This document shows positions 43,108-55,824 of a stretch of DNA of 56,372 bases, in pieces. This stretch comes from an uncultured Nitrospira sp. GTDB lineage: Bacteria; Nitrospirota; Nitrospiria; Nitrospirales; Nitrospiraceae. The translations under genes and the position numbers were made by a program. The stretch is taken from contig CABVRW010000022.1 in assembly GCA_902500785.1 (NCBI GenBank), forward strand, positions 1 to 56,372, in the 5' to 3' direction. How positions within the stretch are numbered: the stretch's first letter is position 1; each line of letters begins with the position of its first letter. The notes beneath the pieces were generated by a model, which saw nothing but the letters and a program-made list of their open reading frames with translations, was not told the DNA's origin and made no database searches.

Positions 43108-46100
43108 TTACTGGCCAAGATACCAATATTGAAGGAAGGAAATCACCGCGAGGATGCTGGCACTAAATACCGGATTGAGAACCAATGGCGTGTAGGCCCC
43201 TTTCTGAACGTGCTCGATGTCCTCTAGTGCCAGGCGCAGCTGATCTGCACAAACCTTTTGTTGCGTCCCCATTCCTGTTACAGCAAGCAGGTGCTCACGA
43301 AAATATCCAATGGCAAGGTCACGAGCTTGTCTGGCTCTCGATCTTAGAATGATCGTACTACCGGCCGCCAGACCAGCATAGATGAGCCAAATCATAATCA
43401 GCGCGAGAGGAAAATCCCAATTGTCGAAAAGCCGATTCCGAGACAATATCATAAAGAACAAGGCGATGAAGGGGCAAAATACGAGTTTATGCACCGCGTG
43501 AGTTTGATCCGCAATGCACCTCACCATAATCAAACCTGGAAGATACCGACGATCTAACTCGAACCGGGAATGAAATTTAGCAAGCGTCTTATCCGGCCAC
43601 CGTATGGATGTCGTCTTGAGTCGTGTTATGAAGCTCTGGCTCAGCAACACGGCATCGAACACAAACATGTTTAAGAAGACCATCGATAAAACTGCCGCCC
43701 ACGTCACACCAGCCACTATTTTGCAGTTAGTAATTCCTCGGCAGGGGCTGGATGGCGGACCAGGCGATGCAATGACAGCCAAAATGATGAAAATGAGAAA
43801 TAGATAAATTACGAGTAAGCTCAGAGATCGGACGACTCGGTTTCTATAGAGAGCGGCCCGTGAGTAATCGTGCCATATTCGAGCGATGCTCGCACTACCA
43901 TCGGTTGGTTGCGGTACCGACTTAATCCAAATTATGGACCTAAGAAGCACGCATACCTGTTCACGTAGGCTGCCTTTGGGTCTATAGGAAGGGAGCGCAA
44001 ATTCTTCTTTCAATTCACTCTGACTGGATCGAAGCGCATAGTAGGCTCTGACCAAACATCCAAGACACCATGCAATCACGAGAGAGCGGATGATGATGCT
44101 TGGCCAGGTGCTCACCCCGTCGGAAATGCTGAACGGCTCACCCTCCCATCTATCCTCCAAAATCACCCGTATCAGCCGATCCACTCCTCCCACGACCGTG
44201 AAAGCTCCGACACTGGCTATTATTGTCAGCGCAACGACCCTCCAATGCCATGTGACTCTTTCAGCGACATCGCCCTTCGCCCAATTCCACATTTTCCCAG
44301 GCAGTTGAGTGAACACGACAAGACTCACTAGCACCGCCACCAGGAGCCAGAACACAGTGTGACGGAATCGAAGGCGATAATCCGCGTTCAAAATTTTCCA
44401 CCAGGGTCTCATCCCCAGAGGAAACAGTTCACGCGGGGGCTGAATCATTTCTATTTCTCCCACCCGCGACGGGACGGCTCCTCGGTCAGCAGAGAGGTCG
44501 ACTGGACCATGGCGCCCGACCTCGAATAGTCGTGGACAAAGCAGCGCGGAGAACGGTTTCGGACTCAAATCGATTTCGTATCGGTCAAATAGTAACTCCA
44601 TACTCTCAAAACCAGTTTCCGGACACACCATTGTCGATGGTGTCGACGACCGCACAGACCTGATGTGGCCCAAGGCTCGAAGCATCGTAAAAAAACCTGA
44701 GGTCTGATAACTGTTCCGGAAAGGGGGGATATCATGCTGGATTCCACTATGGAGATTCAGACCAAAGGGTGACGCGACAACGAGGTTGCGCGCCCACTTT
44801 GATTCACGCTCCTGAAGCAACCGCGCATCCAAATCAGTTGTAAAAAAAATCGCGTTGGGAAATTCTTCTCGAACAGCCCTCAGAATGAGCAAGGTGTCAT
44901 ACACGTCGCTGCCGAGCACCCCGATCGCCTTCGGCGGCTTCCCAATGGACCCGCTGGCCTCGTCAGCATCCTGCTTCATTCTTGCAACTAACCTGCGCAG
45001 ATAATCCAGCTGGCTCTCCCCATCCGGGCGTTCGAGGCCTTCAACCGTCTTATCTTGATGCTTCTTGTCATTCGAGTTCGATCGGCCGCTTTTTTTATCG
45101 TTCTCTGCCTCCCCGCTTTTCTTACTGGCTCCTGGTGTCAGGCCATCGAGGCCGCGGAGATAGGAATAGCGGGAGATCCTCATCTCAAGCGCATCCCAAC
45201 GTTCTGGGTGTTCTATCTGGGAACGAATGGCCCGAGAGATAGATTGGCACTCCCTAAACCGTTTATAGAGGACAGCGTCACGCCGATTCCTTTCTGCCCC
45301 CTCGTCCATACTCTCGACTTTATTTAGTTCATCGGTAATATTCTCACTAGCAACCACACAAGCTGCCGCTCTGAAAACAATTGGAAGCGCTCGGCCATAG
45401 AACGTGTCCCATTCTCCGATAAGCGCAATGGGATCTTCGCCTATTTTGACCTGTCGCCTTCCAAGTTCTCCCACCAAGGCGAGAGACATCTCTTCATCGC
45501 CCTCGACGGTATGCTCGAGGACAACACCTGCATTAGCCAGTTGGGCGGCCAAATTTTTCCTGCACGATTGACCCCCTTCGCACCTATGGGTATTGGCTTG
45601 CCCATTCGAATCAATCCCTTGCAAAAGAAGTTCAGGAGAGGCTGTGGCCCAAGGTGAATAAAGGGCGATCTTGAACGACGTAGGGCCCTCAAGAGATCCT
45701 ATGTTCGGCCACCATTTAGGCGCAGCCTGATCTCGTGCGTTCTGTAGCATAACCCTGAGCATGCTGGAGCTAGGTGGGCCGATAATCTTAAACTCGAGCT
45801 TGGCCATACACTCTACAGAATGCCGCCCTCCACAGACATCGGCCCAATACTGGCTCGCAAGCAACCCTGAAATTTCATTCAGTCTATTCAACGGCCTCTC
45901 TCCCAGACTGTCATCCGTCGCCCAGACTAGGAGAACCCGATCGTAGTGCTGCTTGTAATCCTTGTCCTGATGACATTGTCTAGTCTTTCTCGCCTTATAC
46001 CACTCGAACGGAACGAGGCTCTGCCCAACCTCGAAGTACCCGATGTGCTCTTCGTCGGCCGGCACAAGGCACGCCACACCGAGAGCGGAGAGTGCTGCAT

Positions 46101-46455
46101 AGCGGTCGCGCAACCGCTTCTCATGGTTCTCGGCATATGGACTTCCCTCGGTAATGATGATGAGAACCCCGATATGCACCCCGGGGTCTTCCCTGCTCTC
46201 AAAGTGAATACTGGAGAAACTGTGGTTGTGGCGTGGCTGTTCGGTACGGTCGCTTTGCTGATGAGATTCTGCCGCTTCTATCGGGTCCTGCCAGAGTCGC
46301 GCCTGAATCAGTTCCGCTTCCCGGCCTATGGCTGGTTCAACCACAGGGCGTGAGCTGAGAAGAGGCTCACGTACCAGCCAGAGCGTAGCTAAGGCCATGG
46401 CGAGTCCGACGACTGTTGTGATGGGAATTTTTGATTCTTCCCGATCCCCTGCCAT
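43108..46455 (-). CDS. Large membrane protein with periplasmic-binding-like ectodomain, unknown family
   Basis: The 1115-aa protein has a signal anchor (~12-29), a ~660-residue outer region, then about eight membrane helices (~699-717, 739-756, 788-805, 880-897, 914-938, 990-1005, 1015-1036, 1094-1113). The outer region holds type-1 periplasmic-binding-like strands: HIGVLIIITEGSPYAENH (~94), FKIALYSPW (~261), PIALIGEWDTFYG (~342) and AIGVLGSDVYDTLLILRAV (~510) with FFTTDLDARLL. A charged K/S/D-rich insert (~440-480) interrupts it. I recognise no transporter, kinase or nuclease motif after the helices. The base composition is visibly lower in GC than both flanks, which suggests transfer. GAGGGG sits 6 bp before the start. 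Confidence 0.8.
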   Translation of the reverse strand: MAGDREESKIPITTVVGLAMALATLWLVREPLLSSRPVVEPAIGREAELIQARLWQDPIEAAESHQQSDRTEQPRHNHSFSSIHFESREDPGVHIGVLIIITEGSPYAENHEKRLRDRYAALSALGVACLVPADEEHIGYFEVGQSLVPFEWYKARKTRQCHQDKDYKQHYDRVLLVWATDDSLGERPLNRLNEISGLLASQYWADVCGGRHSVECMAKLEFKIIGPPSSSMLRVMLQNARDQAAPKWWPNIGSLEGPTSFKIALYSPWATASPELLLQGIDSNGQANTHRCEGGQSCRKNLAAQLANAGVVLEHTVEGDEEMSLALVGELGRRQVKIGEDPIALIGEWDTFYGRALPIVFRAAACVVASENITDELNKVESMDEGAERNRRDAVLYKRFRECQSISRAIRSQIEHPERWDALEMRISRYSYLRGLDGLTPGASKKSGEAENDKKSGRSNSNDKKHQDKTVEGLERPDGESQLDYLRRLVARMKQDADEASGSIGKPPKAIGVLGSDVYDTLLILRAVREEFPNAIFFTTDLDARLLQERESKWARNLVVASPFGLNLHSGIQHDIPPFRNSYQTSGFFTMLRALGHIRSVRSSTPSTMVCPETGFESMELLFDRYEIDLSPKPFSALLCPRLFEVGRHGPVDLSADRGAVPSRVGEIEMIQPPRELFPLGMRPWWKILNADYRLRFRHTVFWLLVAVLVSLVVFTQLPGKMWNWAKGDVAERVTWHWRVVALTIIASVGAFTVVGGVDRLIRVILEDRWEGEPFSISDGVSTWPSIIIRSLVIAWCLGCLVRAYYALRSSQSELKEEFALPSYRPKGSLREQVCVLLRSIIWIKSVPQPTDGSASIARIWHDYSRAALYRNRVVRSLSLLVIYLFLIFIILAVIASPGPPSSPCRGITNCKIVAGVTWAAVLSMVFLNMFVFDAVLLSQSFITRLKTTSIRWPDKTLAKFHSRFELDRRYLPGLIMVRCIADQTHAVHKLVFCPFIALFFMILSRNRLFDNWDFPLALIMIWLIYAGLAAGSTIILRSRARQARDLAIGYFREHLLAVTGMGTQQKVCADQLRLALEDIEHVQKGAYTPLVLNPVFSASILAVISFLQYWYLGQ

Positions 46456-48199: not shown

Positions 48200-48562
48200 C
48201 TATCGGAAGTTGGCTTCGAGATCGGATTCCAACGTGAAGACGAAAATGCGCTCGCCGACCACGGTGTCGATGTCGGTAAACAACGCCGTGATTTTCGCAC
48301 CGATCAGATCCGCCACCTGTTCACAGAGGCGTTCACGGCCCTGCGCGATGAGGTTCTGGCGAAGACGTTTCACCATATCAATGCCTTCAGCCGTCTTGGC
48401 CAGTTGGCGCTCTGCGGGGGTCAGCACACCCTTGAGCCGCACCACCAGCATATCCCGCACAATGAAGACCCGGACCTCGTCCGGGCCACGCCCCAGAAAT
48501 TCCTGTTCGAACTTGATAATCGCCGTCCGAACGGCGGCTTCCTTTTCTCCCTTGCTGGCCAC
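48200..48562 (-). CDS. DUF2294 / MpsC-type protein
   Basis: The 120-aa protein has the DUF2294 (Pfam MpsC) pattern: EKEAAVRTAIIKFEQEFLGRGPDEVRVFIVRDMLVVRLKGVLTPAE near the N-terminus and GERIFVFTLESDLEANFR at the end. In Staphylococcus aureus the mpsABC operon encodes a NuoL-like subunit, a DUF2309 subunit and this protein; Bacillus YbcI is similar. Its exact role is unresolved. Here it is not in the dab operon but divergent from it across a 553-bp gap, upstream of selO. That proximity supports a functional link. Confidence 0.86.
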   Translation of the reverse strand: MASKGEKEAAVRTAIIKFEQEFLGRGPDEVRVFIVRDMLVVRLKGVLTPAERQLAKTAEGIDMVKRLRQNLIAQGRERLCEQVADLIGAKITALFTDIDTVVGERIFVFTLESDLEANFR

Positions 48563-49004
48563 AGGCGGTCACGTCCTTTTCGTCGTCCACTGAACAGGGT
48601 CCGGCCGATTATACGCACGGGGCGACGATTTCATCCAGTCCAACGGATGCTCCTCTCCGTGGAGGGAATTGTCGAATGGGAGAACCGCCTGCCGTGTCGC
48701 TTTGACAGCGCGTCTCGTCAGCCTCGCTGCACCGGCTGACATCAATATGGCAGGATCCCGCGACCTGACCATCCGCTGACGCGACGAACAAGGAATGGTG
48801 TGAGAACGATGGTCGGGGTACGGCGTGCTCGACTGGGCCCAGCGGACCAACCGCGTGGTGATGGTGATTCGACTTTCCACTTGCATTTAGGGGCCCGCGC
48901 GGCTACATCTTACGTCGCGTTCCGGTGGTGCCGCCGAGAGGCCGTGAATCGCGCGCGGCCAGGACCCACGTTATTGATGTCATGAGACAGGCAGTAGGGT
49001 CTAG

Positions 49005-49095
49005 CCGGTGTTTCCCCTCAGGGAAAGGCCGGGGACAGTGCAGGCCAGTCGTTGGTTCCTTGTTTCAAGGACCGTCGGCTGGCCTTTTTCTTTTC
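49005..49095 (+). promoter_or_regulatory. Structured leader of dabB: hairpin followed by intrinsic terminator
   Basis: Hairpin 1 (49005-49032): CCGG-TG-TTTCCC, loop CTCA, GGGAAA-GG-CCGG. Hairpin 2 (49043-49084): GGCCAG ... CTGGCC with an inner arm CCTTG-TTT-CAAGG, followed at once by TTTTTCTTTTC (49085-49095). A terminator in the plus direction with no plus-strand gene upstream, 20 bp before the dabB ATG, is most simply an attenuator or riboswitch expression platform. I could not match it to a known riboswitch class. Confidence 0.65.
49043..49095 (+). terminator. Rho-independent terminator in the dabB leader
   Basis: A long GC-rich stem (outer arm GGCCAG/CTGGCC) ending directly in TTTTTCTTTTC. 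It lies upstream of dabB, so it should limit transcription of the whole carbon-uptake operon unless prevented by an anti-terminator fold or factor. Confidence 0.75.
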
Positions 49096-49115: not shown

Positions 49116-50810
49116 ATGTCGTTCTTCGCGCTCGTCCCACTGCTGCCGCTCCTGACGGCATTCATCGTGATGACCGGCGATCGCGCGGAGCAGGACCGGA
49201 ATGCCAGGGCCGGGCTGTTCCCCATCATGGCGTCCTTTCTCGGGTCCCTCATCATCCTGATACGGGTCACCTCCGGAGACCCGATTACGATTCAACTCTA
49301 CGATCCGGCCGCCATCGCCAATCCCGCCTTCCCGATCGGGTTCTATATCGACCGTCTCAGTGCGGTGATGATGGTCCTCATCACGGGCGTGACTACCCTC
49401 ATTTATCGCTACTCGATGGGCTACATGTATCAGGATCGCGGGTATCGCCGGTACCTCGGCATGCTCGCCATCACGACTGCGGTGCTGCTCTGCATGGTCT
49501 CCAGCGCCAATCTGGTGATGTTGTTTATCTTCTGGCAAATTCTCTCCTGGCTGCTGTTTCTTCTGGCGCACAACCACGCGCATGCCGCCACGTTGTCCGG
49601 CGCCTCCAACACCTTCACCCTGTTGCGCATCAGCGATGCGGCGTTTCTCGCAGGGATCGTCCTGGCCTATTCCCTCTATGGCACCTTCGAGTTTCACTCC
49701 CTGTTCGCCCGCGCCGCAGCGACGCCCGTCACCCTGTCCCTCTGGCCGGCACTCGGCTGGGAGATGAATGGGAGCACGGCGGTCACGCTGCTCATTTTCA
49801 TCGGAGCCATGGGCAAGTCGGCGCAATTCCCGATTCACACCTGGCTGCCGCGGTCACTCTATGCACCGACGCCGGTCCACGCGCTCCTGCATGCCGGCAT
49901 CATCAACGCCGGTGGTTACCTATTGAACCGTCTGGCCCCGCTCTACGGCCTGAGCCCGACCACCCTCCATGTCGTCTTCGTCATTGGGATGCTCACCGCC
50001 ATTCTTGGCGCGACCATGATGTTGACCCAGAACGACATCAAAAAGACGCTTGGCTTTTCGACCATCGGCCAAATGGGCTACATGATTATGGAATGTGGTT
50101 TGGGTGCATTTTCCCTCGCCGTCTTCCATCTGATCGCGCATGGCCTGTTCAAGGGCACGGTCTTCCTGAACTGCGGCAACGTGATCCACAAGGCTCGCCA
50201 AGAGCCCTCGTTCCCGCAAATCGACCGTGAGGCGGAAGAAAGCGAATTCTCCAACCTGACTTGGTCCACCGGATTCTTGACGACGTTGCTGCTGCCGCTC
50301 GTGATTCTGCTCGTCACGCATGGTGTCTTGAGAATTCCGCTCATCGACTCACAGGGCACCGTCATTTTCCTCTTCTTCATCTGGGTCACCTCCTCGCAAG
50401 CGATTCTCTCGCTGACACGCATTCGCGCCGTGGCCTCGTGGAAGGTCTCTGCCGCCATGCTGGTGACGCTCGTCATCGTGGTCTTCACCTACCTGTTTGC
50501 GGTGGAGAGCTTTACACACTTCCTGTATCCGAATCCGGACGTCGTGGCGTTCTATTTCAAGGCCGCGGCGTTGCCGGGCCGGCTCTTCGACAGCCTGGTG
50601 GTCGGAACCACGTTGCTGACGATCCTGAGCTGGGTGTATCTCTACGCCCATGCGCATGGACGCACGGTCACAATTCCCGGATGGATCGAAGTGTTCCTCG
50701 TCCGCCTGTATGTCCTGTTCATGAACCGCCTCTATCTGGATCAGCTCTATCTCAAGTTCGGCCGATTCGTGACATTCGTCGCCCACCACCTGGAAAAGCG
50801 GCTCTCGTGA
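49116..50810 (+). CDS. dabB: DIC transporter membrane subunit DabB (NuoL/MpsA-like)
   Basis: The 564-aa integral membrane protein has 13-14 helices and the proton-antiporter fold of complex I subunit NuoL. MGKSAQFPIHTWLP holds Lys234 (TM7), followed by HALLHAGIINAGGYLL (TM8, His255 and His259), NDIKKTLGFSTIGQMGYM and Lys346 in a later helix. At the position of the NuoL TM5 Glu the sequence reads FWQILSW, Gln141. Lengths and gene order match DabB of DAB carbon-concentrating systems, which couple cation flow to inorganic carbon uptake with DabA. The start at 49116 avoids the leader hairpin; an in-frame start at 49008 would lie inside it. Confidence 0.9.
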   Translation: MSFFALVPLLPLLTAFIVMTGDRAEQDRNARAGLFPIMASFLGSLIILIRVTSGDPITIQLYDPAAIANPAFPIGFYIDRLSAVMMVLITGVTTLIYRYSMGYMYQDRGYRRYLGMLAITTAVLLCMVSSANLVMLFIFWQILSWLLFLLAHNHAHAATLSGASNTFTLLRISDAAFLAGIVLAYSLYGTFEFHSLFARAAATPVTLSLWPALGWEMNGSTAVTLLIFIGAMGKSAQFPIHTWLPRSLYAPTPVHALLHAGIINAGGYLLNRLAPLYGLSPTTLHVVFVIGMLTAILGATMMLTQNDIKKTLGFSTIGQMGYMIMECGLGAFSLAVFHLIAHGLFKGTVFLNCGNVIHKARQEPSFPQIDREAEESEFSNLTWSTGFLTTLLLPLVILLVTHGVLRIPLIDSQGTVIFLFFIWVTSSQAILSLTRIRAVASWKVSAAMLVTLVIVVFTYLFAVESFTHFLYPNPDVVAFYFKAAALPGRLFDSLVVGTTLLTILSWVYLYAHAHGRTVTIPGWIEVFLVRLYVLFMNRLYLDQLYLKFGRFVTFVAHHLEKRLS

Positions 50811-50865: not shown

Positions 50866-52173
50866 ATGATCAAGGCCTGGATGACGCCGTGGCTGCTCGT
50901 GGCCCTACCCTTCCTCGGCGCGGGGCTCAGCCTGCTCTTGCGAGCGTCGCTCCAGCGGATGAAGACCTCGGCCCTGCTGACCACCATCGCCAGCCTGCTT
51001 GCGGTCGTCGGAACGCCCTGGGCTCTCGACGATACCCTGGCCGGTGTGCCTTTTCTTTGCCTGCTCCCGCTGACGGCATTTCTTTCGCTCCTCGGACAAC
51101 CATTGCACCGCGACAACACTCCGGCTTGGGTGATGACACTGGTGCTGCTGGGGCTGGGACTGGGCATCCTTTCCGCTCCGGCGCCCGCGCACGACATCAT
51201 GCTCCTGATACTGCTTGCCCTGCTCTGCAGCCTGCTCTATCGTTTTCAATCCGGCGCTTCGGCGGAGACCTGGCGGGGGCTATCGTCCTATGGTCTGGGC
51301 CTCGTGTCCACCGTGCTGGCCCTCATGCTTCCGACACCGGCAGCGACGGTCGCTCTCTTAATCACCTGCGGCACCCTGCTGCCGCTCCTGCCGATCCACA
51401 GCGGCTTCGTGGCGACTCTCACGGGATTGCCGGGCAATCTTCCCGCATTCCTGGCCCTGTTGCTGCCCACGGTCGGATTCCATACCCTGCTCCTGTTGCT
51501 TCCGAATTTGACCGTCACGATCCTCCACACCGTCGCGCTTCTGGCACTGGCGGGGGCCGTCTATGCTTCGCTTCGGGCACTGATTCAGTCGCGTCCGCTG
51601 TCTCGTCTCGCATATGCCGCCGTCGCGTTTTTCGACATGCTCTGGTGGTATATCGCCGACACGGGCACCGCCCCCATGCAAGCCACGGTCTATCTCAGCG
51701 CCGTGGGGCTCGCAACGAGCGGGCTGCTGCTGGCCTGGTTCGCGATCCGGGCCCGTTACGGCGATATCGATACACGCGCAATCGGCGGTCTTGCCTATCC
51801 CATGCCCCGCTTCAGCACCCTGCTGGCGCTGCTGGCGCTCGCCGCCCTGGGTATGCCGCCCTTCGGCGTCTTTTCCGGTTTCCTGGGCATGCTGCTCATG
51901 CCCACGTTTACACCGTCAGGACCGTTTGCCGTGATCATGATCGTCTGGCTCACCGCCTCCTGGTACTACACCGAACTGGTGCAACAATTGGTCTTCGGCC
52001 GGCAACGCGCGGCGATGCGGTACGAGGACTTACGGCAGACGGAGTTTGCGTCGCTGGTGCTGCTGCTGGTGTTGCTGCTCGCCCTCGGGATGGCCCCTTC
52101 GCACTTCTTTGACTCGAATGCGCCGACTCCGCCGTCTTCGGTCGCCGCACAGGGTGGAACATGGATCCGATGA
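50866..52173 (+). CDS. Extra NuoM/NuoN-like membrane subunit of the DAB complex
   Basis: The 435-aa hydrophobic protein has ~12 helices and weak complex-I antiporter-subunit similarity: LLPLLPIHSGF (~172-181) lines up with the VKMPMVPFHTWLPDAH region, and GMPPFGVFSGFLGML (~329-343) is the well-conserved late-helix motif. At the place of the key TM7 lysine there is a threonine in TCGTLLPLLPIH, and the HxxAPTP part is lost. It could be a proton-path subunit with altered chemistry or a structural one. It lies between dabB and dabA, and its end overlaps dabA by 13 bp. Confidence 0.82.
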   Translation: MIKAWMTPWLLVALPFLGAGLSLLLRASLQRMKTSALLTTIASLLAVVGTPWALDDTLAGVPFLCLLPLTAFLSLLGQPLHRDNTPAWVMTLVLLGLGLGILSAPAPAHDIMLLILLALLCSLLYRFQSGASAETWRGLSSYGLGLVSTVLALMLPTPAATVALLITCGTLLPLLPIHSGFVATLTGLPGNLPAFLALLLPTVGFHTLLLLLPNLTVTILHTVALLALAGAVYASLRALIQSRPLSRLAYAAVAFFDMLWWYIADTGTAPMQATVYLSAVGLATSGLLLAWFAIRARYGDIDTRAIGGLAYPMPRFSTLLALLALAALGMPPFGVFSGFLGMLLMPTFTPSGPFAVIMIVWLTASWYYTELVQQLVFGRQRAAMRYEDLRQTEFASLVLLLVLLLALGMAPSHFFDSNAPTPPSSVAAQGGTWIR

Positions 52174-55100
52174 TCCGCCGCGACGACTCGGTGGACCTTG
52201 AAGCGCACCGCATGGAGCTCCGAGGCATGATCCGCCTCGCCAGCGAAGTCATTGCGCAGTATTGGCCCATGCGAACCTTCGTCCACCACAATCCGCTCCA
52301 CAGCCTGGAGTACCTCCCCTTTATCGAAACCGTCAGCCGCGGGCGCCAATTCTTGGGCGGCCACGGGTATCTCGCCGGTGACATCTATCGACGGTATCTG
52401 AAGTCGGGCAGAATTCTGGTCCGCCACATCGACGACGCGCTGGCGTCGTTCGCGCTCGACCAGGAGGTCGATCTCGGACCCTGCCGCATTTCGCATCGCG
52501 AGGTGTTACGCGCCTGCCTGACCCACGGCCTGTCCGCCGCGACCGACGAACCGCTCGATCGACTGATGGAACGCGAACCGAACGAAGAGCACGTCGATGC
52601 GCTGGCCGAACGGCTCAGATCGTTCTCCACACCGACCGTACAGGAACGGATGGCCGCCACGGTTCGCGAGGATGAGGCCGCCTTAGGCCACCATCTCACG
52701 CTCTCAAGCTGGTGCGACCAGACGCTGGGGACCCGGATCGTCGACGAGATCAACGGTGAATTGATCAAATGGTGCGAGGCCTTTCTGGACGAGGGCCATG
52801 CCACCTGGGCGATGCCGGGACGCGAGCTGGGCTTCTACGCAGCCTGGAAGCAGGTGGCCGGGAAAGAATGGATGACCTGCGGCATTGCGGACAGTCGCCG
52901 GAAAATTGCGGCGCTGCCGGAGCATCCCGAAGACGTGATATTTGACTGTCTCGAAGCGCTGGCAGTCCCCGAGAAATTCAGGCAGGACTACCTATCGCTC
53001 CAGCTTGCGGCCCTCCCCGGTTGGGCCGGCTTCATCAAATGGCGCGCGGAAGAAACCGGCTATGCCTGGCAGCAGGCCTATCCCGTCGGGCTGGTGAAGT
53101 TTCTAGCCGTCCGTTTGTGGTATGTGCGCGAGCTGGTCCAGAAAGTCTGCCGGGAAGAATTGGGCATCGAAGGGAACTACTCGGCGGTGTCGAACTACAT
53201 AGCCCAGCAGCCCCATGCTTACTTTCTGCGCAAGGAATGGGCCGCAGGACGACTGCCGGCCGCCTTGGCCGACCGGGTCGCCCACCTCCATGCCAGAACG
53301 AGGCATCGACCGCCGGGTGCGCCGCCCCTCTCTCATGAATGGGAGCGACTCACCCATCACGATCAGATCGAATTCGGACCACGCCGCGAACGGGCCGCGC
53401 AGCGGGTCATGGCGCAACGTCTGCTCACCCTTGCCCAGGCGCTCGAGATCGTCCCCGCTCTGCTGATGGACGGGCCGCCGACGGCCCTTCGCACTCTGCT
53501 GGATTGGATCGAGGGTTTCCCGGAATCCGTGCATGGTCCCGTGTGGCTCAAGGCGTTCGAGGCCGGGTATCAGGATCACCTCTTCGGCATGTTGCTGCGC
53601 GCGCCGGTCAAACCCCAAGCGGCCGCCCTCGAGCGCCACCCGCCGGTGCGGCCCCATTCACAATCGGTCTTTTGCATCGATGTGCGATCCGAGCCGTTCC
53701 GCCGCCACCTGGAATCGACCGGCGCGAACGACACCTATGGCTTTGCCGGTTTTTTCGCCGTCTTCATCCGGTATCGCGCCTGGGGCAAGGAACATGAGAC
53801 CGAGCAATTTCCCGTCATCATGCGGGCAAAAAACGAAGTGCGCGAGATCCCCCGCAGCTACCTGGATCATTACGTGTCCAAACACCAGTCGCGCGCCAAA
53901 CTCGTCCACGCCGGACATACGCTCTTGCACGATCTGAAGGAGAATGTCGTCACCCCCTATGTGATGGTGGAGTCGCTGGGCTGGTTTTACGCGCTTCCCA
54001 TCATGGGAAAGACGGTTCTGCCGGCTCTATACAAACGCCTGACCAAATGGGTGCGGCGGTTGTTCGTGCCGCCGATCGCCACGATTCTCACGGTCGACAA
54101 ACTGGCGCCGGCCGAAACCGAGGAAATGGTGGTCTCCGAGCAACGCGCCTTGATCTGGAAAGCGCTCCGCGACCGACTCGGGCTTCATGGATCGCGGGTG
54201 GATGCCGAATTCGTCGAGGCTTTGCGCCGGCGCGCGCTGGACGAGGAGGCGCCGGTGGAACCGTTCCTGAGCGACGCGGCGAAATCGGCCGACCTGTCGA
54301 CCGAGCAACTCACCGGCTTCCTCGAAGAGCTTCGGCGACACTACCGAATCAATCGCCGCGCGGCGTCGCGTCAGAAAGAGCGGATCACGCGGACCGGCTT
54401 CACCCTCGAAGAACAAGTCATGACCGTGGAAACCGCCTTGCGCATGATGGGCCTGGTGAGGAACTTCGCGCGGCTCGTGCTCTTCTGCGCACACGGCAGC
54501 ACCACCGAGAACAACCCCTTCGAATCGGCCCTGGACTGCGGCGCCTGCGGCGGGAACGAGGGTCAACCGAATGCGCGCGTGCTGGCCGCGATGGCCAACC
54601 GCGCGCCGGTGCGCGAACGGCTGGCCAAACGCGGCATCGAGATTCCATCCGATACGCACTTCCTCGCCGGGCAGGTCGATACCACGACGGACGAGGTGCA
54701 CCTGTTCGATCTTGAAGATGCGCCGCCGACCCACCGCAAGGATGTGGCCCGGTTGCTCGACGATTTATTCGAAGCCGCGCAGCTGACCAGTCAGGAACGC
54801 TGCACCCGGTTTCCCGATGTCGGCGTCGTGCTGCCCGTGAACCAAGCATCAGCGCACGTGGCGGACCGCAGCGCGGACTGGAGCCAGGTGCGGCCGGAAT
54901 GGGGTCTCTCCGGCAATACGACCTTCATCGTCGGCCGCCGGGAGTTGACGAAGGGATTAAACCTGTCCGGGCGCGTCTTCCTCCACTCCTATGACTATCG
55001 CGAAGATCCGACAGACCGCTGGCTCGAAGTGGTCCTGACCGCGCCGCAAGTGGTGGCGCAGTGGATCAACATGGAGCACTACTTCTCAGCCGTGGATAAT

Positions 55101-55430
55101 GATGTCTATGGAAGCGGGAGCAAGATTTATCACAACGTCGTCGGGCGCATCGGGATCATGTCCGGCCCGTGGAGCGATCTCCGCCTCGGCCTGGCTTGGC
55201 AAACCGTCATGAACGGCGACTTGCCCTATCATGAACCCATGCGACTCCTCACGCTGGTCGAGGCCTCGCGCCCGCGGATCGAGAAACTCATCGCCCGGCA
55301 TGAAGTGCTGCAACATTTCTATCACAACGAGTGGGTGCACTTGGCGGCGCTGGACCCTGAGGACGGCCTCTGGTACCGCTACATGCCGTCCGGAGTCTGG
55401 CGCCGGGTGCGGAATCCCAGTGACACATAA
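52161..55430 (+). CDS. dabA: DIC transporter catalytic subunit DabA (DUF2309 / MpsB / UPF0753)
   Basis: The 1089-aa protein belongs to DUF2309. VFCIDVRSEPFRRHLE holds the zinc ligands Cys505 and Asp507; FCAHGSTTENNPFESALDCGAC holds His778 and Cys793. These match the beta-carbonic-anhydrase-like Cys-Asp-His-Cys set known for DabA (the spacing of 15 between His and Cys is the same). DabA makes bicarbonate from CO2 in the cytosol when driven by cation flow through DabB. The N-terminus has the family pattern FVHHNPLHSLEYLPF. It overlaps the previous gene by 13 bp, so it is co-translated with the membrane subunits. Confidence 0.95.
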   Translation: MDPMIRRDDSVDLEAHRMELRGMIRLASEVIAQYWPMRTFVHHNPLHSLEYLPFIETVSRGRQFLGGHGYLAGDIYRRYLKSGRILVRHIDDALASFALDQEVDLGPCRISHREVLRACLTHGLSAATDEPLDRLMEREPNEEHVDALAERLRSFSTPTVQERMAATVREDEAALGHHLTLSSWCDQTLGTRIVDEINGELIKWCEAFLDEGHATWAMPGRELGFYAAWKQVAGKEWMTCGIADSRRKIAALPEHPEDVIFDCLEALAVPEKFRQDYLSLQLAALPGWAGFIKWRAEETGYAWQQAYPVGLVKFLAVRLWYVRELVQKVCREELGIEGNYSAVSNYIAQQPHAYFLRKEWAAGRLPAALADRVAHLHARTRHRPPGAPPLSHEWERLTHHDQIEFGPRRERAAQRVMAQRLLTLAQALEIVPALLMDGPPTALRTLLDWIEGFPESVHGPVWLKAFEAGYQDHLFGMLLRAPVKPQAAALERHPPVRPHSQSVFCIDVRSEPFRRHLESTGANDTYGFAGFFAVFIRYRAWGKEHETEQFPVIMRAKNEVREIPRSYLDHYVSKHQSRAKLVHAGHTLLHDLKENVVTPYVMVESLGWFYALPIMGKTVLPALYKRLTKWVRRLFVPPIATILTVDKLAPAETEEMVVSEQRALIWKALRDRLGLHGSRVDAEFVEALRRRALDEEAPVEPFLSDAAKSADLSTEQLTGFLEELRRHYRINRRAASRQKERITRTGFTLEEQVMTVETALRMMGLVRNFARLVLFCAHGSTTENNPFESALDCGACGGNEGQPNARVLAAMANRAPVRERLAKRGIEIPSDTHFLAGQVDTTTDEVHLFDLEDAPPTHRKDVARLLDDLFEAAQLTSQERCTRFPDVGVVLPVNQASAHVADRSADWSQVRPEWGLSGNTTFIVGRRELTKGLNLSGRVFLHSYDYREDPTDRWLEVVLTAPQVVAQWINMEHYFSAVDNDVYGSGSKIYHNVVGRIGIMSGPWSDLRLGLAWQTVMNGDLPYHEPMRLLTLVEASRPRIEKLIARHEVLQHFYHNEWVHLAALDPEDGLWYRYMPSGVWRRVRNPSDT

Positions 55431-55482: not shown

Positions 55483-55824
55483 ATGGCCGCACTCACGTTG
55501 CATCCCATGAAAGAAATCCGCGTCATCGTATCGGGTGAGCATCGGCCCTTTGTCACCGAGTTGTTGGATAAGGTGGAAGCGACCGGGTACACGATCATCG
55601 GCAATATCTCGGGGAAGGGCCATCACGGCGTGCGCGAAGCCCACTTCATGTTCAGCGAGCAGGAAAGCCTGGTCATGATTATGGCGGTGGTGCCGGAAGA
55701 AAAGGTGGAACCGGTGTTGGCCGGACTACGACCGTTGTTCGACCGGCATTCGGGCGTCATGTTCGTCTCCGATGTCACCGTGAGCCGGCGTGAATACTTC
55801 GGTAAGAAGAGCGACAAGTCCTGA
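55483..55824 (+). CDS. P-II-like signalling protein associated with inorganic carbon uptake
   Basis: The 113-aa protein has the ferredoxin-like PII fold: KEIRVIVSGEHRPFVTELLDKVEATGYTIIGNISGKGHHGVREAHF with the start of the T-loop, and a C-terminal EEKVEPVLAGLRPLFDRHSGVMFVSDVTVSR. It lacks the uridylylated Tyr of GlnB and so belongs to the PII-like group (CPII/SbtB type) that binds adenine nucleotides and, in some cases, bicarbonate. AAAGGAG lies 8 bp before the ATG. Its place 52 bp after dabA makes it the likely regulator of the DAB complex. Confidence 0.87.
   Translation: MAALTLHPMKEIRVIVSGEHRPFVTELLDKVEATGYTIIGNISGKGHHGVREAHFMFSEQESLVMIMAVVPEEKVEPVLAGLRPLFDRHSGVMFVSDVTVSRREYFGKKSDKS

Follow-up and report, generated by a model that had tools for sequence, protein, structure and literature searches.

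How can an operon for inorganic-carbon uptake be expressed when a strong intrinsic terminator stands directly before dabB? This question is raised by a contig of an uncultured Nitrospira sp. (CABVRW010000022.1; the whole stretch of 56,372 nucleotides is referred to as the window), for which a preliminary description had placed an attenuator or riboswitch candidate at 49005-49095. We followed the candidate through the genus, the order and a wider sample of bacteria.

Results

Architecture of the leader

The hairpin and the strong terminator reported in the preliminary description are both present just before dabB (Table 1), and, as it had stated, no plus-strand gene lies upstream, since the neighbours mpsC and selO are on the minus strand and no tRNA is found there. 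Its boundaries do not cover the whole conserved unit, which starts near 48916, or at 48881 if a promoter-like site is included. This unit lies in an intergenic region of about 550 nt between mpsC and dabB. Transcription is predicted to start near 48916, downstream of the promoter-like site, which we infer from its conservation in the genus loci, although it has no consensus sigma-70 match.

Table 1 Features of the dabB leader and neighbouring genes in the window
Feature	Coordinates	Strand	Remarks
selO, left neighbour beyond mpsC		-	PF02696
mpsC, divergent	48200..48562	-	PF10057; adjoins most RNA copies
Promoter-like site	48881..48909	+	TTGCAT 48881-48886, 17-bp spacer, TACATC 48904-48909; conserved in genus loci
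Whole leader RNA (model R1, 180 positions)	48916..49095	+	about 180 nt; in 27 of the 29 genus genomes; columns 89% identical on average
P0, 5' hairpin domain	48925..48969	+	GUGG...CCAC with internal loops; RNAalifold on genus
P1, 5' strand GGC	48990..48992	+	pairs with GCC 49044-49046
P1b (GUA 48994-48996), then unpaired GG	48994..48998	+	GUA pairs with UGC 49039-49041; GG faces AG 49037-49038
P2 hairpin (first hairpin of the preliminary description)	48999..49036	+	covariation
Intrinsic terminator	49042..49094	+	stem 49042-49085; conserved U-rich tail to 49094
dabB	49116..50810	+	NuoL/Mrp-like subunit of DAB inorganic-carbon uptake complex; PF00361, PF00662
Conserved ORF between dabB and dabA	50866..52173	+	435 aa; no Pfam family
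dabA	52161..55430	+	PF10070, E = 4.6e-264
PII-family gene, downstream of dabA	55483..55824	+	PF00543

The terminator is formed by a 5' arm, AGGCCAGUCG (49042-49051), that pairs with CGGCUGGCCU (49076-49085), and the GCC at 49044-49046 is both the 3' strand of P1 and the base of this 5' arm. Folding of the 131-nt region yields -62.3 kcal/mol, compared with -43.1 +/- 3.7 kcal/mol for shuffled sequences (z = -5.2). The site was absent from the output of a simple terminator scan, because the loop limit of 3-8 nt and the stem rule of that scan are unsuited to an interrupted stem. The ATG start codon of dabB follows the terminator tail by 21 nt, and in most genus loci the stem ends about 30 nt before it. 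This leaves too little room for dabB to have its own promoter after the terminator, and transcription of dabB therefore very probably crosses the terminator.

Conservation and distribution

Within the genus, whose members include N. defluvii, a dabB-like gene occurs in all 29 genomes and a close ortholog (at least 80% identity) in 27. The leader precedes dabB in the same 27 genomes with 78-98% DNA identity, and the two genomes that lack it also lack this ortholog. An upstream block consisting of CTTGCA(A/T)T, 17-18 nt and TACAT(C/G)T is likewise conserved in the 27 and resembles a promoter.

The R1 covariance model matched 42 of 175 genomes of the family and also recovered diverged copies from further genera and from a second family. 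A broader core model (R2), built from 23 sequences, matched 186 of 235 Nitrospirales genomes, and in a sample of the phylum all convincing matches fell within this order; the covariance-model E-values are rough owing to a short calibration. Across all phyla, a scan of 84,980 species with a degenerate DNA pattern, chosen without regard to genes, returned 93 matches in 92 stretches, of which 86 have the structure and seven do not. Six of the seven are in named organisms of other phyla (Mycolicibacterium, Acidimicrobiia, Akkermansia, Solincola, Flavobacteriaceae and Brachybacterium) and the seventh is locus L205; all seven have no hairpin and are attributed to chance. The RNA is confined to Nitrospirales in these searches, which we count against the riboswitch reading.

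Several weak model matches were also set aside. One near a pilus ATPase (G274:C81) and two in another Nitrospirota family (G226 and G190; 27-30 bits), which have no GUAGGG core, are terminator look-alikes, while three antisense matches reflect the terminator palindrome. The weak, coreless match at L311 (G226:C50:1897-1997) stands before the start of a gene that resembles, as judged by eye only, isocitrate dehydrogenase, an enzyme of the reductive TCA cycle; it too is probably a terminator look-alike.

Core consensus and covariation

The consensus core reads GGC-N(1-2)-GUAGGGY-[P2 stem-loop]-RCAGURCRRGCC, with the final GCC at the terminator base, and GUAGGG and CAGURC are nearly invariant across genera. 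The preliminary description had proposed a covariance search of dabB leaders in Nitrospirota and had named unconserved pairing in relatives among the results that would refute it, which we take as its main test; the search recovered the Nitrospirales copies, and their pairing is conserved with covarying pairs. An alignment restricted to the genus yields almost no covariation, as it is too conserved to test pairing, so that distant relatives are needed. Among 106 distinct sequences, 91.8% of cells are paired and 20 of 24 pairs have changed on both sides. Compensatory cells number 301 against a shuffle mean of 98, a value reached by none of 500 shuffles, and sliding the partners lowers pairing from 92% to 25-45% (37-45% for a slide of one column). 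This alignment was fitted to the structure and is hence biased in its favour; an independent MAFFT alignment of 23 sequences agrees on covariation. In the 106 sequences, helix 1 (P1b and P2) has changed on both sides in 10 of 11 pairs, and the terminator, with 96.8% of cells paired, carries compensatory changes in seven of ten.

P1 occurs as GGC:GCC in no fewer than 67 of the 78 distinct cores and as GGU:ACC in L283, although GGC is missing from some of the copies at SulP and Mrp genes. For P1 itself there is little covariation, this one GGU:ACC case, because the helix has only 3 bp and is nearly invariant. Hairpins equivalent to P0, with a conserved internal loop and compensatory changes, are found upstream in two other clades. 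The leader is almost certainly a conserved, structured, cis-acting RNA, and such an RNA in the 5' region of predicted mRNAs is one hallmark of riboswitches.

Genes downstream of the RNA

A second hallmark is association with functionally coherent but non-homologous genes, here dabB, dabA, mnhE, SulP, LCIB and CsoSCA-like genes. By next gene, 114 model matches comprise 65 before dabB, 16 before mnhE, 13 before dabA and 12 before SulP genes, with single matches before an LCIB-type gene, a CsoSCA-like gene and a gene for a 797-aa protein; the rest are one contig end, one coreless match and the three antisense terminator matches. In the pattern scan, 82 of the 86 structured matches precede dabB, dabA, mnhE or LCIB genes and the other four are at the CsoSCA-like gene, the 797-aa protein gene and, in two cases, a sequence end. 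Tallies based on A3 contain partly redundant rows, with some genomes under two locus ids.

The SulP permeases behind the RNA match PF00916 (E about 1e-54 to 1e-58), and their best NCBIfam models are sulP, DauA and BicA, all below their cut-offs. Those at L276:5039-6712 and its equivalents in several Nitrospirales are probable bicarbonate, rather than sulfate, transporters. The LCIB-type beta carbonic anhydrase matches PF18599 (E = 5e-53), and the CsoSCA-like protein (L204:1989-3191) matches PF20686 with 23.8 bits against a cut-off of 21.5. With its weak similarity to the carboxysome shell carbonic anhydrase, the latter is a candidate new carbonic anhydrase. The 797-aa protein (L168:4207-6600) belongs to no Pfam family; its gene has its own RNA copy upstream and a second copy with dabB downstream, and is likely to be carbon-related. 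No sequence relationship links these gene families, and inorganic carbon is their sole common theme, a role that is assigned to SulP and Mrp partly through their linkage to the RNA.

Because a promoter-like site and a terminator bracket a compact structured RNA, the element might instead be a separate small RNA that acts in trans, transcribed from its own promoter and ended by its own terminator; its place before dabB would then be incidental or a matter of leakage only. We consider this very unlikely. The RNA copies before mnhE often lie between dabA and the Mrp operon, and a genome can hold as many as three convincing copies, every one at a separate carbon gene, with positions between dabA and mnhE among them; in G274 and G397 three copies stand in one cluster, separately before SulP, dabA and mnhE. 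Coreless matches excepted, no copies occur away from such genes, and a plain small RNA would have no need of the overlap between P1 and the terminator.

A predicted ON switch

Computationally, the core and the expression platform exclude each other through the common GCC, as assessed in 20 diverse folded cores. In the full RNA of all 20, the terminator state is favoured over forced P1 by 2.5-10.9 kcal/mol. When the RNA is cut 8 nt after the GCC, ahead of the 3' arm of the terminator, P1 has a probability of at least 0.87 in 19 of the 20 and of 0.14 in L112. As P1 forms in the cut RNA and the terminator wins in the full RNA, folding predicts an attenuator that is OFF by default and turned ON by a signal. 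We propose the following sequence of events: (i) RNA polymerase would make P0 first and then the P1-P1b-P2 core, in which GGC:GCC, GUA:URC and the covarying hairpin enclose conserved internal loops. (ii) Without stabilisation of the core, the terminator would invade P1 through the common GCC, and transcription would stop about 20 nt before dabB, leaving the operon off. (iii) If a signal acts on the core, P1 would keep the GCC, the terminator base beside the U-run would be blocked, and polymerase would read through.

In another alternative nothing is switched, and the element is a terminator that always acts or just a conserved palindrome; this view draws on the fact that strong intrinsic terminators are common, and the simple scan gives several in the region, a number near chance level. 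Yet conserved unpaired loops, P0, the covariation of P1b and P2 and the placement before several unrelated carbon families all speak against it, and a permanent terminator at this distance from dabB would silence an operon that is kept in nearly all genomes. Such a terminator is extremely unlikely, and termination here is, on this modelling, very probably conditional. An attenuator or riboswitch candidate, as the preliminary description had it, remains the best reading of a conserved structured RNA that precedes unrelated inorganic-carbon genes and whose terminator overlaps the closing helix of its core. More specifically, the leader is probably a cis-acting transcription attenuator that controls genes for inorganic-carbon acquisition, represents an undescribed Nitrospirales RNA family and is most likely a riboswitch.

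Comparison with known RNA classes

The preliminary description had matched the element to no known class, and we likewise found no Rfam family that fits. At the gathering threshold, Rfam 15 has no family on the window or at the element in 16 divergent loci, and a focused search (E <= 10) gave a best E of 1.5 with no credible hit; mir-432, Proteo-phage-1, RT-12 and suhB, at E 1.5-9.7, are chance matches. A leader peptide or dabB extension, considered in the frame of dabB, was rejected since in-frame stops lie close upstream (567 aa in G006 and 570 aa in G027, against the 564-aa protein), as was an N-terminal extension from the GTG at 49008, a start that is not conserved.

The closest architectural parallel is the HMP-PP riboswitch (thiS motif), a small aptamer in which P1 excludes the terminator base and the ligand causes read-through (PMC6478431). 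The leader has the same predicted ON architecture and, similarly, genes tied to one metabolic theme, but the genes are unrelated, and its P2 and P0 precede the terminator rather than sitting within the terminator tip. Identity with this class was rejected, as there is no Rfam match and no thiamin genes lie directly downstream at the loci checked. The pbuE adenine and crcB fluoride riboswitches are also transcriptional ON switches that set a ligand-stabilised aptamer against a terminator; the leader differs from them in sequence, fold and genes, and again has no Rfam match. The NiCo (czcD) riboswitch controls a terminator as well, and the GACAGGCAG...GGACAG segments in the genus Nitrospira bear a superficial likeness to it. 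This likeness is gone in other genera, Rfam gives no match, and no metal-export genes are found at the leader. With protein-mediated and leader-peptide attenuators the leader shares premature termination in a 5' leader, predicted in its case, but it has no conserved ORF in the dabB frame, and no antiterminator protein was identified.

Discussion

What works the switch? An RNA-binding protein might take the place of a small molecule, for example MpsC, encoded divergently, or the PII-like protein encoded downstream. Consistent with MpsC, its gene adjoins most RNA copies, and among 11 sampled genomes strong MpsC matches were found in all five with the RNA and in none of six without it, one of which gave a weak match. 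Such co-occurrence is nevertheless expected, since MpsC is part of the same uptake locus; moreover, B. subtilis, examined as a control, has MpsC, and no RNA copy was found there, and the all-phyla scan places the RNA only in Nitrospirota, chance matches aside. The nearly invariant internal loops look at least as much like an aptamer as like a protein site. We therefore regard control by a protein as doubtful, and a metabolite-binding riboswitch as fairly likely.

Our leading idea is that the signal is inorganic carbon, or else a metabolite that indicates when inorganic carbon runs short. Were CO2 or bicarbonate itself the ligand, a tentative and rather improbable proposal, this would be the first natural class of riboswitches to recognise dissolved inorganic carbon, switching on the carbon-concentrating genes of Nitrospirales. 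Combined with ON polarity, such a ligand would raise uptake in its own presence, an unusual behaviour for a nutrient and an odd one for simple feedback. ON polarity would be better suited by a metabolite that builds up under limited carboxylation than by inorganic carbon. Nitrospira uses the reductive TCA cycle, which makes 2-oxoglutarate, acetyl-CoA and PEP candidate signals. Alternatively, the RNA may sense Na+, pH or a general energy or starvation signal, which is possible, albeit not likely. Mrp, SulP and the NuoL-like DabB all work by ion coupling, and their common factor could be Na+ or H+; the LCIB-type and CsoSCA-like carbonic anhydrases, however, are not ion-coupled transporters, and the RNA has no match in Rfam 15, which includes the known Na+ and Li+ riboswitch classes. 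Gene context can mislead on ligands, as in the history of ykkC, whose listed linked genes included nitrate/sulfate/bicarbonate transporters and whose first ligand turned out to be guanidine (PMC7266159); the contexts here are more uniform.

In the literature searched, where subscription papers and preprints are sparsely covered, no bicarbonate, carbonate or CO2 riboswitch was found, and DabA and riboswitches were mentioned together only in one paper, which is unrelated. A 2022 review makes no mention of bicarbonate (PMC10043782). Little is understood of the way in which bacteria sense inorganic carbon. By standing before DAB, SulP, Mrp and carbonic-anhydrase genes throughout Nitrospirales, the RNA marks a single regulon in which the question can be tested directly in vitro. 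It would also tie carbon concentration to nitrification in the nitrite-oxidising Nitrospira, suggests that SulP and uncharacterised proteins probably belong to the carbon system, and could give a carbon biosensor.

Other features of the genome

Matches resembling 6S RNA (RF00013) occur only elsewhere in the genome, at G000:C32:38296-38370 and G000:C25:41829-41904, just under the Rfam threshold, and 6S RNA was thus rejected as the identity of the leader. The window also contains a 1115-aa ORF with no Pfam family on the minus strand (43108-46455). Within the dab operon, the PII-family protein has weak DUF190 similarity and is a possible post-translational regulator of carbon uptake, and the 435-aa ORF, which is kept across Nitrospirota dab operons, may encode a third DAB subunit.
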